Below are positions 2,910 through 16,523 of a stretch of DNA of 39,306 nt, piece after piece. The notes under the pieces are model-generated. The model was not told the DNA's origin, did no database searches, and worked only from the letters and a program-made list of their open reading frames with translations. How positions within the stretch are numbered: the first letter of the stretch is position 1; each line of letters opens with the position of its first letter. Both the position numbers and the translations under genes were made by a program. The stretch is taken from the IMG/VR virus record IMGVR_UViG_3300050138_000039, positions 1 to 39,306 of that record; one strand, given 5' to 3'. This DNA is from a virus.

Positions 2910-3420
2910 ATGGAATATCCGACCCGGCTTCTACGAACATTGGAAGAGCAAGGATATCTACGAAGTATTGTTCACAACCAAAGATTGCACAAATTGTCCT
3001 GACTGCGGCAATAGTGGAGTAAACGTAGTCTATCGTAATGTCAAGACACGTAAGATGTACACGCGGGACGCGGCTGAGTTCATGGAGAAATTGGAGCATA
3101 TTCCAAGGTTCAAACTTGTGAACGAACTTGATACACCATTGGCTTTGTTTGTCGAGACATTGCGAATGAATCGTATCGAGTATCTGCGAATGTGTATGGA
3201 GAATCCATTGTTCGTTCAGAACCGGGCGAATCAACCCTTCAAGTACATGCTTGGCGACAAGATCAGTTTCGCCAGTTGTATCCGACTGGTCAATACCAAA
3301 ACAGCCAACAACCTACTGACTTGGTTGAATAGTTGGGCACCAGAACCGACAACCAGCTACGAGAAGAAACGTCTGCGAGGCCAAGATGATGTTAATGATA
3401 GTGTTGACTCTTCATCTTAA
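2893..3420 (+). CDS. Hypothetical protein, 175 aa
   Basis: The gene is coupled to its predecessor by a 17-nt overlap. The protein has an N-terminal CTNCPDCG cluster (possible zinc site with few ligands), a mid-section rich in helix formers and a Ser/Asp-rich C-terminal tail (DDVNDSVDSSS). No family is recognised. A perfect 9-bp hairpin starts at the base directly after the TAA. Confidence 0.55.
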   Translation: MSQKNEWNIRPGFYEHWKSKDIYEVLFTTKDCTNCPDCGNSGVNVVYRNVKTRKMYTRDAAEFMEKLEHIPRFKLVNELDTPLALFVETLRMNRIEYLRMCMENPLFVQNRANQPFKYMLGDKISFASCIRLVNTKTANNLLTWLNSWAPEPTTSYEKKRLRGQDDVNDSVDSSS

Positions 3421-3574
3421 CTTCTGTTCTTGTGAACAGAAGCAGGATTGTGTAGATGAAGTGGCAGGTCGTAAACCATTAACAGGGCGAACATTTAATG
3501 GAGGGATGGAGCATACAGCGAACTTTCTGGACCTTGTGAAGTTAGTCTTAAACCGTAGGCACAAAGGGAGATAG
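3386..3574 (+). CDS. Possible small secreted or lipoprotein-like protein, 62 aa
   Basis: The ORF begins ATGATG inside the end of the previous gene, 7 nt after a GAGG, and fills the gap to the gene at 3578. Its N-terminus (MMLMIVLTLHLNFCSC) resembles a short signal sequence with cysteines near a possible lipobox, followed by a polar domain. Against it: a perfect hairpin (3421-3442) lies within it directly after the upstream stop, which suggests this could instead be untranslated leader. The call is tentative. Confidence 0.35.
   Translation: MMLMIVLTLHLNFCSCEQKQDCVDEVAGRKPLTGRTFNGGMEHTANFLDLVKLVLNRRHKGR
3421..3442 (+). other. Hairpin immediately after a stop codon
   Basis: CTTCTGTTC (3421-3429), loop TTGT, GAACAGAAG (3434-3442) form a perfect 9-bp stem beginning at the first base after the TAA of the 2893-3420 gene. 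No T-run follows, so it is not a standard terminator. It may be an mRNA 3'-end stabiliser or processing site between operon segments. Confidence 0.55.
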
Positions 3575-3577
3575 AAC

Positions 3578-4012
3578 ATGCCAGCGAAAAATTTCAACCA
3601 GATCGAGAACGAAGACTACCGCATCAACCCAACGCAATTGATTGTTCGGAAAGCGGTGATCCAGAACGGCACGAGCGCCGACGATATCTTCAACCGTCAC
3701 AATATCGAAGGTACTATTATCGAGACGTTGCCACATGCAATGCACGGTCTTGGCGGTAAGAAGCCGGTCGCTTGTTTCGTCTTCCGTATCGAAGCGGCAC
3801 AAATGACCACGGATGAAATCGCCAAGAAGGAAGCAGAACTCAAGGCGAAGAAAGTAGCACAGGATAAGGCAGACGCAGAGGCCGTGAAAACGTCCGTAGC
3901 GAGTGCACCACCGCCGCCTCCGCACATGCCATCCACTCAGGAACCGAAAGATCCTGATGCGGAAGCGAAGGGCACACCACGCACGCCGGGTACTCTGCCG
4001 ACCAAGAAGTAA
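3578..4012 (+). CDS. Hypothetical protein with Pro-rich tail, 144 aa
   Basis: The ATG at 3578 is preceded by GGGAGATAGAAC. Residues 1-75 look like a compact alpha/beta domain (GGKKPVACFVFRIE strand), about 75-110 form a Lys/Glu/Ala-rich helix likely to be coiled coil, and 110-144 are low-complexity with five consecutive prolines and PT/PG repeats. No family is recognised. A GTAA-tetraloop hairpin follows 8 nt after the stop. Confidence 0.6.
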   Translation: MPAKNFNQIENEDYRINPTQLIVRKAVIQNGTSADDIFNRHNIEGTIIETLPHAMHGLGGKKPVACFVFRIEAAQMTTDEIAKKEAELKAKKVAQDKADAEAVKTSVASAPPPPPHMPSTQEPKDPDAEAKGTPRTPGTLPTKK

Positions 4013-4019
4013 ACACGGG

Positions 4020-4039
4020 GGTGGCCCGTAAGGGCCACC
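4020..4039 (+). other. GNRA-tetraloop hairpin between early genes
   Basis: GGTGGCCC (4020-4027), loop GTAA, GGGCCACC (4032-4039) form a perfect 8-bp GC-rich stem capped by a GNRA-type tetraloop. No U-run follows. It lies 20 nt before the ATG of the next gene, so an mRNA-stabilising or attenuating role is more likely than termination. Confidence 0.6.
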
Positions 4040-4059
4040 ATATTCAATTGGAGATAGTC

Positions 4060-4278
4060 ATGGACATTGGAACAAAAGTCAGCGTTAAGTGGAAAGGTCT
4101 TGAGTTTACGGGCACTATCCAAGGTATTGTAATGGGTGCTTTCAGTGTATGTCCCGATGTGATGACACCTGAGATTGAAAAATTACGTACTGTAACATTT
4201 GATCCACCCGGTTGTATTGTGTTACATGCCACCTACATCAAGGAAATTACTAATGCTGATAAAGTTGACGAGCCATAA
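4060..4278 (+). CDS. Hypothetical protein, 72 aa
   Basis: The start at 4060 is preferred because TTGGAGATAGTC precedes it. A GTG 39 nt upstream would place the hairpin inside the coding region. The protein looks like a small beta-barrel (GTKVSVKWKGLEFTGTIQGI), a pattern typical of SH3-like folds, but no family is assigned. Confidence 0.55.
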   Translation: MDIGTKVSVKWKGLEFTGTIQGIVMGAFSVCPDVMTPEIEKLRTVTFDPPGCIVLHATYIKEITNADKVDEP

Positions 4279-10792: not shown

Positions 10793-10920
10793 TCCTAATG
10801 TCCTAATGTCCTAATGTCCTAATGTCCTAATGTCCTAATGTCCTAATGTCCTAATGTCCTAATGTCCTAATGTCCTAATGTCCTAATGTCCTAATGTCCT
10901 AATGTCCTAATGTCCTAATG
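10793..10920. repeat. 16 perfect tandem copies of the octamer TCCTAATG
   Basis: The 128 bp are exactly 16 uninterrupted 8-bp units with no variant unit. The frame of 8 makes all six reading frames stop within each 24 bp, so it is non-coding on both strands. It sits 30 nt after the 10202 gene. The 156 bp from 10921 to 11076 hold no ORF or other feature that I can see. Possible roles: iteron-type protein-binding array, slippage-variable spacer, or an RNA-binding array. Confidence 0.95.
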
Positions 10921-11076
10921 TGGAGAGGCCGTTAGATTCCTATCATTGTCAGTGTATCATGAGGGCAACCCAAAAATATGTGCCCAATCCAAATTATCTT
11001 GAAGGTCGTTTTGGCCGAGAAAAAATTTTACGTGCTAGATCTGGGATAGTTTATTTAAGATAAGATTCAACGAAAA

Positions 11077-11106
11077 ACGCCCTAACAGCCTAAGCTGTTA
11101 GGGCGT
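11077..11106 (-). terminator. Rho-independent terminator (leftward), distal of a tandem pair
   Basis: ACGCCCTAACAGC (11077-11089), loop CTAA, GCTGTTAGGGCGT (11094-11106) form a perfect 13-bp stem. Read leftward it is followed by TTTTTCG. It ends the leftward unit 11214-13615 as second stop. Confidence 0.85.
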
Positions 11107-11139
11107 CTAAAACAGGATACTACCTCCAGATACAAAAAT

Positions 11140-11166
11140 AGCCCGGATAGCTAAACTATCCGGGCT
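11140..11166 (-). terminator. Rho-independent terminator (leftward), proximal of a tandem pair
   Basis: AGCCCGGATAG (11140-11150), 5-nt loop, CTATCCGGGCT (11156-11166) form a perfect 11-bp stem. Read leftward it is followed by ATTTTTG. It lies 47 bp beyond the stop of the last leftward gene. Confidence 0.85.
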
Positions 11167-11502: not shown

Positions 11503-11842
11503 AAGAGCCTTAGAACATTGCGCCTTCGAGTGTTTACGTTGGTATTCGTTTATTCCGTTCATATTCCTCTTCAGCTAAGATCACATCCAGAATAATCTCC
11601 GGTTCGTGACCGTAACAACATTCCACAGTGCATTCCACAGTGCATTCCACACTGTGATTTTCCTTCAACCAACGATCAAAATTCGTACGACTGAACTTAT
11701 TCTTAAATTCAAACGTCGCCATTAAGCGTTGAACCTCACCTACTATCATGCTAGTGAGTTTCGCGCCTATGTCCGACATTTTCAAGAGTATGTCATTATT
11801 CATCACGCCTCCGATTCTGAGGCGCAATGTTCTAAGGCTCTT
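11503..11842. repeat. Gene-bracketing inverted repeat A (23 bp, perfect)
   Basis: The arms are 11503-11525 and 11820-11842 (core GAGCCTTAGAACATTGCGCC and its exact complement), 23/23 matching. They enclose the leftward 11534-11803 gene: 16 nt (with its SD) separate the upstream arm from the ATG and 8 nt separate the stop from the downstream arm. A 13-nt piece of the arm (11506-11518) recurs at 15231-15243. Confidence 0.95.
11534..11803 (-). CDS. Hypothetical protein with Val-Glu-Cys-Thr repeat, 89 aa
   Basis: The start at 11803 is chosen because GGAGGCGTG directly precedes it on the minus strand; a frame extension to 11827 would run through the SD and the repeat arm. The protein is helical with a basic middle (FKNKFSRTNFDRWLKENH) and a VECTVECTVECC stretch encoded by three copies of a 12-bp repeat, then an acidic tail (DVILAEEEYERNK). 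The Cys doublets might bind metal. The whole gene lies inside inverted repeat A. Confidence 0.6.
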   Translation of the reverse strand: MNNDILLKMSDIGAKLTSMIVGEVQRLMATFEFKNKFSRTNFDRWLKENHSVECTVECTVECCYGHEPEIILDVILAEEEYERNKRIPT

Positions 11843-11847
11843 GGTTT

Positions 11848-12145
11848 GATAGGGTCAAGGTTGAAGCACCGTATTCAAGGGTTATTGTTTGAAGACACGA
11901 GCGTAATTATCTTTGTATTCCTGTTCATGATCGTCATCCTTGTATGCCGGACGAAGATACATGCTATGTCCATTCATCGAACCCGCCAGTAGAGCACTTT
12001 GCCACAATCGAACAGCAACATCCTTGTGGTAAGCAGAACTTGATAGGCGTATGTATTTACCATTCTCTTTTGTAAAAAGAGAATATGTCCGTTTATTCGC
12101 CATCTTATCCTCCTATTCCTACGGTGCTTTAATCTTGACCCTATT
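11848..12145. repeat. Gene-bracketing inverted repeat B (26 bp, 2-3 mismatches)
   Basis: The arms are 11848-11873 (GATAGGGTCAAGGTTGAAGC...) and 12120-12145. They match with two C/T differences plus one at the edge. They enclose the 11882-12103 gene with the same geometry as repeat A: 16 nt between the upstream arm and the ATG, 8 nt between the stop and the downstream arm. The left arm begins 5 nt from the right arm of repeat A, and the right arm ends 1 nt from the left arm of repeat C. Confidence 0.9.
11882..12103 (-). CDS. Hypothetical protein, 73 aa
   Basis: The minus-strand ATG at 12103 follows AATAGGAGGATAAG. The protein opens with ANKRTYSLFTKENGKYIRLSSSAYHKDVAVRLWQSALL, a small strand-strand-helix arrangement, and ends in a charged tail. 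No family is recognised. It is enclosed by inverted repeat B. Confidence 0.6.
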   Translation of the reverse strand: MANKRTYSLFTKENGKYIRLSSSAYHKDVAVRLWQSALLAGSMNGHSMYLRPAYKDDDHEQEYKDNYARVFKQ

Positions 12146-12146
12146 C

Positions 12147-13451
12147 AATCGAGAATCCCTAAGTTGTGCCCGTGTTCCGGGCACGACGTATTCACAACTA
12201 CTTCTTGGCAGACGGAAAAACCGGCTTTCCATCCACGAACAGGCCGGAGGCTACCAGCAGTTCGTTGCATTCCGCCTTGATCGCATCCAGTGCGGCGATA
12301 TTCGCGGGCGCTGTCTTGCCGTCGGCGAGCGCCTGAAGAACGTACCGAACAAGATAGTTCGGCGCATTCTTGCCTAACGCCGTGACGCCCGTAGCGTTCA
12401 GAGGCTTCGTGGGTTGAGGCTTCGCCTGACTCGGATCATCGAAGTACGCCTTAATGTCCGATTCCTTCGTGGGCTTTTCCGCGTCCGTTTCCATCCCTTT
12501 GACCAGATCGTTCAATGTCTTGCGGTCAAGCGACGTACCGTATTCCTGCCCCACGTCGATCTCACGGCCATTCTCGGTGCGGAAGCCGGCTTCCGTGATG
12601 CGTTTCACGATTCCGAGTTCAGGAAACCGTGCATTCAACAGGAGGATGGGCCATACTTTCTGCGCCCGTCCGACCATGTTGTTATCACCACCGGAAACCA
12701 GACGCGTGATGTCGCTGAACGTGGCGAGCCGGTTCGTCGCTTCGAAGAACGCATTCGCGCCTTTGATAATCGACGGCCAGTGATTCGTCACGTCATTGAG
12801 CAACGCATCCTTCATGTAGTTTTCGTCCATGCAATCCTTGATCCGTTCCGCCTCTGTCTTGTATTCCATGATGTAACATGGCAGAGTCGCGATCGGTTCG
12901 ATTCCGATTGCCATTGCATAGGCGATAGCCATATCGAGACAGCCACCGCGCTGGTAAGCGTAGATCGCTTCGTACGTTGGAGCAACGATCTTGCCTTTTG
13001 ACATCCAGCGCAATTCGAAAGCCTCACGCGTCTGAGCGTCAGATACTTTCGTCACTTTGCCCTTATCTTTGAAGGGTGTTTCCGGGTGAACGCCTTGGAG
13101 CGCGTCCCACAATGACGTGAGATACTCCACGGCTTTCGCCTGTCCCTCTTTCGACAAGGCGACGATCTTGATCGGCATTCCCGGATTCCATCCTTCGTTC
13201 GCCAGTGTGACCGCGATATTCCGGCGGAAATCCGGTGAGTCGATCTTTGCATCATGTCTGGCGTAGTTATTCCACGGCAACCAGATCACGTTGCTGACCG
13301 CTTCGAAAACTAACTTCAGTGCTTTACCCATGTTCGTATTCTCCCTAAGTGTAACCGTGTTTGTTTGCATCAGGATAGTATGTGGCAAAAACCACATTTA
13401 AACTATCACGATTGCGAATTGCACACGGACACAACTTAGGGATTCTCGATT
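12147..13451. repeat. Gene-bracketing inverted repeat C (29 bp, 1 mismatch)
   Basis: The arms are 12147-12175 (AATCGAGAATCCCTAAGTTG...) and 13423-13451, identical to each other's complement except one C/T. They enclose the 12198-13331 gene and its 91-nt leader. The arms are 1.25 kb apart. The left arm also overlaps a local hairpin (GTGCCCG/CGGGCAC, 12166-12184) just after the stop of the gene. Confidence 0.95.
12198..13331 (-). CDS. Large leftward protein, possible ParB-like domain, 377 aa
   Basis: The start at 13331 follows AGGGAGAATACGAAC on the minus strand. Weak similarity to ParB/Spo0J-type domains can be seen: FRRNIAVTLANEGWNPGMPIKIVALS near residues 36-61, YEAIYAYQRGGCLDMAIAYA (compare the G-x-R-R...A box), and EAERIKDCMDENYMKDALL (compare the EN-x-x-R/K box), but the match is not firm. 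The C-terminal third is Pro/Lys/Ala-rich with a low-complexity stretch. Codons end in G or C far more often than in its neighbours, like the capsid gene, which may mean high expression or separate origin. It is enclosed by inverted repeat C. Confidence 0.6.
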   Translation of the reverse strand: MGKALKLVFEAVSNVIWLPWNNYARHDAKIDSPDFRRNIAVTLANEGWNPGMPIKIVALSKEGQAKAVEYLTSLWDALQGVHPETPFKDKGKVTKVSDAQTREAFELRWMSKGKIVAPTYEAIYAYQRGGCLDMAIAYAMAIGIEPIATLPCYIMEYKTEAERIKDCMDENYMKDALLNDVTNHWPSIIKGANAFFEATNRLATFSDITRLVSGGDNNMVGRAQKVWPILLLNARFPELGIVKRITEAGFRTENGREIDVGQEYGTSLDRKTLNDLVKGMETDAEKPTKESDIKAYFDDPSQAKPQPTKPLNATGVTALGKNAPNYLVRYVLQALADGKTAPANIAALDAIKAECNELLVASGLFVDGKPVFPSAKK

Positions 13452-13452
13452 C

Positions 13453-13664
13453 CACAATGTGCGGGCTTTTGACCCGTTGTATCACGGCTAGGGTTTGTAT
13501 TCGCGATTCCTCAAAAATGAGAGGACGTTTAGAAAATGAAAAACGGCGAAGCCATGCAAAGTAACGACATTCCACAAATAAACCAACAAATTGCATCATT
13601 CGTTTCATGGTCCATTGTATTCTCCGATTCTGTGATACAAAGGACCAAAAACCCGCACATTGTG
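13453..13664. repeat. Gene-bracketing inverted repeat D (35 bp, 5 mismatches)
   Basis: The arms are 13453-13487 (CACAATGTGCGGGCTTTTG...) and 13630-13664, matching at 30 of 35 positions, most differences being transitions. The left arm starts 1 nt after the right arm of repeat C. They enclose a 28-codon leftward frame with a good SD. Confidence 0.85.
13529..13615 (-). CDS. Candidate 28-aa membrane peptide inside inverted repeat D
   Basis: On the minus strand AATCGGAGAATACA precedes an ATG at 13615; the same GGAGAATAC context precedes the 13331 gene. The frame encodes MDHETNDAICWFICGMSLLC and a further hydrophobic end (MASPFFIF), a possible transmembrane peptide. The position, with the upstream arm of repeat D 14 nt from the ATG, copies the layout of the other bracketed genes, which is the main support. 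It is very short, so it remains a candidate. Confidence 0.4.
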   Translation of the reverse strand: MDHETNDAICWFICGMSLLCMASPFFIF

Positions 13665-14196
13665 CTCTTCTATTCGATTAAGACAAAATATCGTTTCTTT
13701 GTGTCCGCTATCTGGCGCAATTGCGTTACTCAGCGAACTCCGAAACATTCAGACCATAGCTAGTTTTTTTTGTATTTCTAGCTAGTCCGTTTTGTCCTTG
13801 TTTGTTTCTTTCATAATACGCAAAGTACAACGTATTTAACATTGTGCATTATTGTAACCATATACACTGTAAGGAATTAAAAGATTTTACGATTTTTAGA
13901 ACGTCGAAACGTTGCACTATTAGGGTATTGTTAAGTTCACAATGTTCTTCCCTTATATAGCGTCCGATACGTACCATAATACAGTTTAATACAATTTCTT
14001 ATAACCTACCCTAATTTAGGTTTTAGGGTAAAATGACGCCATAGGGCTAAAACGGTCTAGACCCTACCTGGACTCAGAATTTTAAAAATAACGCAATAGC
14101 GTCGTTTTGCACTATGCGCACGCACCCCACCTAAAAGTATCCTAATAGTGCAACGAAAATAAATAAAAAGAAAATTGAAAATAGACGCTAATAAAC
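13616..14196. other. 580-bp AT-rich non-coding region between divergent units
   Basis: No ORF with an SD is convincing on either strand. It contains the upstream arm of repeat D, a CGCAATTGCG palindrome (13716-13725), a TAGCTAG followed by eight T (about 13758), three TTGCACTAT/ATAGTGCAA words, TTAGGGTA at 13920 and 14023 with its inverse at 14007, and ACGCAATAGCGT near 14090. It should hold the promoters of the leftward unit and operators, but no clear -35/-10 pair for leftward transcription was found. Confidence 0.5.
13910..14155. repeat. Inverted repeat E (18 bp, 1 mismatch) with no clear gene inside
   Basis: The arms CGTTGCACTATTAGGGTA (13910-13927) and 14138-14155 match at 17 of 18 positions with a 210-bp interior. 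The interior holds TTAGGGTA sites (14007-14030 as an 8-bp hairpin) but no SD-supported ORF. A 22-codon GTG frame leftward from about 14125 is the only candidate and is weak. Confidence 0.75.
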
Positions 14197-15060: not shown

Positions 15061-15465
15061 TTATTTATACCCTGTTACACCTAGAAATAGGGGTATACCC
15101 CGGAGGGTCAAATCCTAGTTCATAGGGGAATTTCTTGAAAGTTGGGGCGGCGCTGCATCGAGGTCGATCTCCGGAATTTTTATTTTAGGCTTAAATCTAA
15201 CAGCCTTTCCACAACAATATAAGATACAACAGCCTTAGAACATATGGATAAACCCTATTTCTATAAGTTCCCCATATTCTAACACGCTTATCCACAAATA
15301 AACCCACTTTCCAAGAAACTAAAATCGCAAGATAAAAATTCTGGAAAATTTATTCTAGGTCGTTACATTATCACTAATTTATATCTTTTAAAATTTTTAT
15401 CACTCCATTTGACGAATCTCAAAAACCACCTTATTATATTTTGTGGACCAGGGAGATGTACCCAC
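15061..15465. other. AT-rich intergenic region with DnaA box; candidate replication origin and late-operon leader
   Basis: No gene is seen. Features: palindrome GGGGTATACCCC (15090-15101), a perfect DnaA box TTATCCACA (15288-15296), an 8/9 match reversed at 15243-15251 (TATGGATAA), a 7/9 match at 15205-15213 (CTTTCCACA), two copies of AACAGCCTT (about 15199 and 15229), an imperfect inverted repeat of CCGGAATTTTTAT (about 15172) with ATAAAAATTCTGG (about 15332), and an AT-rich tract up to 15410 that could be an unwinding element. Because it precedes the terminase operon it must also contain, or receive, the late promoter, which I could not place. Confidence 0.5.
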
Positions 15466-16313: not shown

Positions 16314-16523
16314 ATGGAAATTATCTTCGTTTGCCGCTCGGTTGCTTCGAACACTTATCCTACGATGAACAGCGTGAACGCAAGCAAGAAAACGAGCTAC
16401 TCCGCAAGTCTCGAAATCGCAAAAGGCCAGAACATGACGGGTACGCTTTATATCACGTCGGACGAACAGATCTTCCAGTTGGATCAGAAATACACGTTAT
16501 GCGTGGATGATACTGATGACTAA
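16314..16523 (+). CDS. Hypothetical protein, 69 aa
   Basis: The start at 16314 is preferred because AAAAGGATATAAA precedes it; longer frames upstream lack an SD. The protein is beta-rich (EIIFVCRSVA, KTSYSASLEIAKGQ, GTLYITSDEQIFQL), compatible with a small beta-sandwich. It overlaps the large terminase start. No family is recognised. Confidence 0.5.
   Translation: MEIIFVCRSVASNTYPTMNSVNASKKTSYSASLEIAKGQNMTGTLYITSDEQIFQLDQKYTLCVDDTDD

Follow-up and report, generated by a model that had tools for sequence, protein, structure and literature searches.

Our analysis of an uncultured phage contig of 39.3 kb (39,306 nucleotides, hereafter the window) and of its relatives reveals chains of genes that are each enclosed by their own pair of complementary arms. 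In many cassettes the mRNA 5' arm is complementary not only to the 3' arm but also to the ribosome site of the same gene, a feature absent from the preliminary description of this DNA. As the 5' arm is complementary to both, the 3' arm is a look-alike of the ribosome site. With a probability that we put slightly above one half (about 0.52), each cassette would be a natural cis-acting toehold switch permitting translation only once the 3' end of its gene exists; what we infer from folding predictions are its two states (OFF and ON), the exchange of strands and the purpose that it would serve.

The putative bracketed operon of the window

In the window, whose GpA-type terminase lies at 16507, genes A to D are located upstream of this terminase, are read leftward and each have a private inverted repeat of 23-33 bp (Table 1). 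These are the only inverted repeats of the whole window that score at least 18 within 2.5 kb, and five first-order Markov shuffles gave none, which bears out what the preliminary description had claimed for the four genes. The same holds for the mutual unrelatedness of the arm sequences of A, B, C and D, as judged by arm comparison, for the geometry common to A and B (16 nt from arm to start, 8 nt from stop to arm) and for the abutment of neighbouring repeats without nesting (A and B 3 nt apart, C and D 1 nt apart, the fully extended B overlapping C by 2 nt). Chance is excluded for all four arm pairs, B included, which lacks only the added complementarity to the ribosome site. Since an unbracketed fifth ORF and terminator hairpins are found downstream of A, A to D look like part of one leftward operon. 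A promoter scan gave nothing above chance, and Rfam 15 returned no match in the window at gathering score.

Table 1. Features of the leftward operon (window positions)
Feature	Position	Strand	Remarks
Terminator-like hairpin (intrinsic), presumed end of the leftward operon	11140..11166	-	a further hairpin (11081-11108) seen by eye
Last leftward ORF, 88 aa	11214..11480	-	GTG start, strong ribosome site, no bracket
Cassette A, mRNA 3' arm	11503..11525	-	23/23 Watson-Crick (WC) with 5' arm; resembles A ribosome site (AGGCGCAATG vs AGGCGTGATG)
Gene A, 89 aa	11534..11803	-	stop 8 nt from 3' arm; start 16 nt past 5' arm
A ribosome site and start codon (GAGGCGTGATG)	11801..11811	-	leader-only fold: paired with 11819-11829
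Cassette A, mRNA 5' arm	11820..11842	-	partners: 3' arm (23/23), or ribosome site via its own 3' half
Cassette B, mRNA 3' arm	11846..11873	-	arm pair: 26 WC, 2 A-C, 1 bulge
Gene B, 73 aa	11882..12103	-	16/8 geometry like A; exception: 5' arm not complementary to own ribosome site
Cassette B, mRNA 5' arm	12120..12148	-	
Cassette C, mRNA 3' arm	12147..12175	-	arm pair: 28 WC, 1 G-U
Gene C, 377 aa	12198..13331	-	
C leader segment with ribosome site (ACACGG...CTTAGGGAG)	13341..13360	-	complementary to C 5' arm
Cassette C, mRNA 5' arm	13423..13451	-	
Cassette D, mRNA 3' arm	13453..13485	-	arm pair: 29 WC, 3 G-U, 1 mismatch
Gene D, hydrophobic peptide, 28 aa	13529..13615	-	
D start-codon segment (ATACAATGGACC)	13609..13620	-	leader-only fold: paired with D 5' arm
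Cassette D, mRNA 5' arm	13632..13664	-	

A protein family search found no convincing match for genes A, B, C and D. Gene C is distantly related to a bracketed 399-aa gene of the relative L080 (tblastn E about 1e-8), several relatives carry ParB-like genes at its place, and no close relative of it was found among viral contigs. As the AlphaFold model of gene C is unusable (mean pLDDT 41), its kinship to ParB is suggested by weak sequence links only. Most bracketed genes encode 39-486 aa, several of them being ParB-like, and 28-aa peptides occur as well (gene D and others).

Other repeats and genes of the window deserve mention. Upstream of the operon, a fifth inverted repeat (13910-13936 / 14129-14155; 27 nt, 85%) encloses no convincing ORF and is possibly a control or origin region. 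Outside the operon, CAACAGCCTTAGAACAT at 15227-15243 has an exact 11-nt match to part of a cassette A arm (CCTTAGAACAT) and could base-pair in trans with an arm of A. A tandem array of sixteen perfect TCCTAATG copies (10793-10921) separates the rightward gene block from the terminators of the leftward operon, and a ThyX-type thymidylate synthase (Pfam Thy1, E 1e-15) is encoded at 1886-2728.

A cassette design common to a group of uncultured viruses

The cassettes belong to a widespread group of uncultured bacterial viruses and are not a local oddity. Relatives were collected via the terminase, and the curated set comprises 31 cassettes, window included; gene D, the L028 gene (located on L130) and L193a were added by hand from inverted-repeat lists, and L069, L070, L049, L103 and L141, together with some scan hits, were excluded by hand for satellite- or palindrome-like repeats. 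Strong inverted repeats number 32 over all relatives versus 1 in shuffles, and many enclose exactly one ORF. In L002 (TerL 46% identical), for instance, a 26-nt inverted repeat surrounds a 373-aa leftward gene whose distance from the terminase is about that seen in the window. When 2975 predicted genes were scanned for complementarity of at least 14 between the 110 nt upstream and the 110 nt downstream, 37 of the 831 genes opposite in direction to the terminase (on the loci's minus strand) were enclosed versus 4 of the 2144 others; random pairing within genomes gave 6 and 9, respectively, in the same scan. Comparison genomes (lambda, SPO1, Vibrio phage SHOU24 and a 260-kb portion of a Planctomycetota MAG) yielded 2/454 genes, one of them by eye a terminator-like palindrome. 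A chance origin is rejected by the window shuffles, the shuffles of the relatives and the random gene pairing.

In the TerL tree, where L182 and L211 are the same contig, cassettes are scattered through one large clade, and none is found in a twelve-member sister clade with the Planctomycetota MAG locus. L028, whose cassette is on the other strand, falls outside both clades when the tree is midpoint-rooted. Absence of a cassette is often uninformative since many contigs are truncated upstream of the terminase; at the other ends of truncated contigs, only two further bracketed genes were detected (L225 840-1844 and L237 556-1578). Planctomycetota are no more than a possible host: the MAG (L094) is the nearest cellular match but stands in the sister clade in which no cassette was found. 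Named phages have no DNA in common with the region, their best TerL identity being about 25%.

The geometry is largely shared. Arms measure 14-37 nt (median 27) and at least 21 nt in 28 of the 31 cassettes, so that the unit is surrounded by a near-perfect stem of at least about 20 bp, as expected of an RNase III stalk. The start lies 10-28 nt past the 5' arm, with gene C of the window as single exception (91 nt, within a 120-nt leader that has its own hairpin). In 19/31 cassettes, 2-13 nt separate the stop from the 3' arm, with 6-8 nt as the commonest spacing; larger, mostly ParB-like genes have 7-58 nt there, and gene D has 43 nt. Consecutive cassettes are mostly 0-5 nt apart in the window, L196, L211, L219 and L027 (exceptions, 12 nt and 219 nt), and this common spacing identifies the chain of abutting cassettes as a shared design. 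Some arms in L219 and the window overlap by 2-11 nt, and nested or overlapping arms are present in L080, L219 and L045. At 3251-4106 and 3853-4079 of L045, inverted repeats are nested with abutting 5' arms, the inner one being without a clear gene. Within a genome the arms are unrelated, bar two neighbours in L219 (5680-6197), where adjacent cassettes of 68 and 81 aa have nearly identical arms, the sole such case; the 68-aa ORF resembles an N-terminal piece of ParB. The preliminary description would have been contradicted by relatives with diverged, unpaired arms or with arms at random positions; instead, the arms of relatives differ in sequence but still pair and occupy comparable places around the ORF.

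Two further motifs were also seen among the relatives. Many dispersed palindromes TTGATTTACTAAATCAA, which may be operator sites, occur in L102, L103, L105 and L112 (G008 and G010), and leftward genes of L002 (4740-5640) have in common a repeated leader with the palindrome GGTTCAGCGAACC followed by an AAGGAG site.

Pairing of the arms at the RNA level

Complementarity between the 5' arm and its own ribosome site is seen in A (CATTGCGCCTC/GAGGCGTGATG, leader reading), in C (CCCTAAG/CTTAGGG), in D across the start codon (GGTCC..TTGTAT/ATACAA.TGGACC) and in L002 (CCTTTGC/GCAAAGG); L040 has a 5' arm-ribosome site stem of about 20 bp, and the stem of L045b spans SD and ATG. Over the set, pairing of the own 5' arm with the own ribosome site reaches -13.0 kcal/mol compared with -9.6 kcal/mol for permuted combinations (z -6.9; 0/20,000 permutations), and the effect persists without the window (z -5.7) and is little changed without the hand-added cassettes too. 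Its maximum coincides with the ribosome site, and it declines on entering the coding region (z -7.0, -3.6, -1.3 and -0.1), being absent from about +20 on bar one scan interval; this residual downstream signal probably results from an interval that touches the 3' arm of the shortest genes. Individually, 14/31 cassettes are significant, i.e. beat 95% of shuffled arms. No clear switch is apparent in B, the only window cassette without a ribosome-site complement, nor in L194-83aa, L157, L179, L211-486aa, several L219 genes and L207-28aa, so that pairing between the two arms is more widespread than the switch. Since B and several relatives are bracketed without this complement, the helix must have a use of its own, such as insulation, a closed loop or RNase III processing.

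Folding predictions give these alternative pairings opposite effects on the ribosome site. The cost of opening positions -15 to +4 is predicted at 4.3 kcal/mol without the 5' arm and at 10.9 kcal/mol with it, and occlusion by the own 5' arm exceeds that by foreign 5' arms (10.9 vs 6.8 kcal/mol, z 10.7). Addition of the own 3' arm lowers the predicted cost to 5.6 kcal/mol versus 10.6 kcal/mol with a shuffled 3' arm (p 3e-8), and in complete natural cassettes (n=22) it falls from 10.8 to 5.3 kcal/mol. Arm:arm pairing plus the remaining leader beats the leader fold in stability in 31/31 cassettes, and the predicted relief is at most 1 kcal/mol in 6/31; these minimum free energy values take no account of RNase III, for which so long a helix could be a target, of ribosomes or of the kinetics of cotranscriptional folding.

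Evidence that the arms act as RNA comes from their imperfections. On the mRNA-sense strand, non-Watson-Crick arm positions comprise 41 G-U versus 11 A-C and 16 other mismatches (p 1.8e-5). Because DNA-level selection or neutral drift should give as many G-U as A-C, strand-biased mutation aside, this excess points to selection at the RNA level; a strand-biased C-to-T mutation pressure could add to it. In the single homologous pair that informs on compensatory changes (L193c/L196c, ParB-like, 61% protein identity), the alignable arms display five two-sided compensatory, four one-sided consistent and no breaking changes. Arms of L193a/L196a (47%) and of ParB-like genes overall have widely diverged yet still pair, and L192/L193 give no covariation because they are identical over the region. 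Both the G-U excess and the compensatory changes uphold the earlier proposal that each coding region would form the loop of a long private RNA stem, with an effect at the RNA level.

We propose the following sequence of events for the candidate switch. On leaving the RNA polymerase, the 5' arm would fold onto the nearby downstream start codon and ribosome-binding site, thereby blocking access for ribosomes. Once transcription reaches the 3' arm, this ribosome-site-like segment, complementary to the whole 5' arm, would capture it via its free part, and the two arms would form a helix of roughly 27 bp, releasing the ribosome site. In the resulting closed loop, the start codon would mostly follow the helix after 10-28 nt, and the stop codon would often precede it by 6-8 nt. 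Since each cistron would supply the trigger with its own 3' end, translation would wait for the transcription of the gene to finish, and each cistron of a polycistronic message would be translated only after its own 3' end, independently of its neighbours.

Alternative explanations and related RNA systems

Among other explanations, the private stems may be RNase III processing stalks that are cut to turn a polycistronic transcript into monocistronic messages. Most arms (23-37 nt) are long enough, abutting stems would separate messages cleanly, the covariation acts at the RNA level, and the 5'-3' pairing of icaR mRNA is an RNase III substrate (PMC3868564). We nevertheless consider processing as the explanation rather unlikely, for it predicts neither that the 5' arm is complementary to the gene's own ribosome site nor that the arm lies about 16-18 nt before the start, and would bring little gain to a bracketed gene without bracketed neighbours, such as that of L002. 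Alternatively, the helix could join stop and start in a closed-loop message for reinitiation on the same gene, with nuclease-shielded ends and the ribosome-site hairpin as a secondary matter. The clustering of distances (stop to helix, 6-8 nt; helix to start, 13-25 nt) fits this proposal. These distances roughly match what a ribosome covers on termination and on initiation, so that the helix could persist during translation. However, the stop-arm gap widens to 7-58 nt in the larger, mostly ParB-like genes, and a closed loop does not by itself predict that the 5' arm matches the ribosome site; it thus appears quite unlikely as the whole explanation.

The preliminary description had also suggested that end pairing silences the message once its 3' arm is made. 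According to the folding, this probably has the wrong sign, since the 5' arm alone hides the ribosome site, whose release by the 3' arm is what the predictions show. A hok/aapA-like fold-back, in which the end-paired full-length message is inert until trimming or an antisense RNA activates it, uses the same types of parts, an SD-sequestering 5' hairpin and 5'-3' pairing (PMC6733600), and gene D does encode a small hydrophobic peptide. Besides the opposite effect predicted by folding for the pairing, the majority of bracketed genes do not resemble toxins, reaching 486 aa and including several ParB-like ones, and no Rfam family was matched, which makes a fold-back improbable. One gene per unit, tandem units and inverted ends would also suit cassettes at the DNA level, which the preliminary description had raised, or mobile units (integron-like, with cruciforms or with terminal inverted repeats). 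We reject them as scarcely credible because arm sequences differ from unit to unit with almost none in common, the excess of G-U over A-C is confined to the mRNA-sense strand, and the positions of the arms are tied to those of the start and stop codons.

Toehold switches rank among the mainstays of RNA engineering. Their original design is reportedly that of Green et al. 2014. As in the putative phage switch, synthetic versions (e.g. PMC7063572) place a 5' segment on the ribosome site and start, which a complementary trigger displaces to open translation. They are engineered and normally triggered in trans, whereas the putative phage switch would respond to the 3' end of its own cistron, gene by gene in a natural operon. 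In pre-rRNA, long RNase III stems also bracket a transcribed unit inside a polycistronic RNA, but they enclose rRNA rather than ORFs and show no ribosome-site complementarity. The hok/sok family combines short end pairing with toxin genes and antisense RNA. Its members (tac, fbi; PMC6733600) resemble the cassettes in that mRNA ends pair and alternative folds decide on translation, with the opposite sign. Similar in parts are the aapA/IsoA type I toxin mRNAs of Helicobacter, with transient 5' hairpins that hide the SD during transcription and long-distance end pairing into an inert form that 3' trimming activates (PMC6733600). Their paired full-length form is inert, whereas pairing in the phage cassettes is predicted to activate, and no toxin-antitoxin organisation is seen for most genes. 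In icaR mRNA of Staphylococcus aureus, the 3' UTR pairs with the SD, represses translation and recruits RNase III (PMC3868564), which resembles the cassettes by the effect of 3' UTR-5' UTR pairing on translation and by a duplex that RNase III can cut. It differs in that repression comes from direct binding of the SD by a 7-nt 3' motif, without a private 27-bp bracket or a 5' anti-SD competitor. In a limited search of the open-access literature, we found no description of such operons or of a natural cis-acting toehold switch.

More tentatively, a whole phage lineage may have equipped many cistrons with sequence-unrelated toehold switches triggered by their own 3' end, translation being deliberately uncoupled from transcription and messages checked for completeness, with stacked helices forming a closed-loop chain sized to ribosome footprints. 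If the proposed switch is real, it would raise the question of why a phage would forbid translation before a gene is fully transcribed, and would supply an activating counterpart to the repressing 5'-3' pairings of hok, aapA and icaR. It would also show how evolution makes orthogonal switches without sequence conservation, and provide dozens of natural designs.
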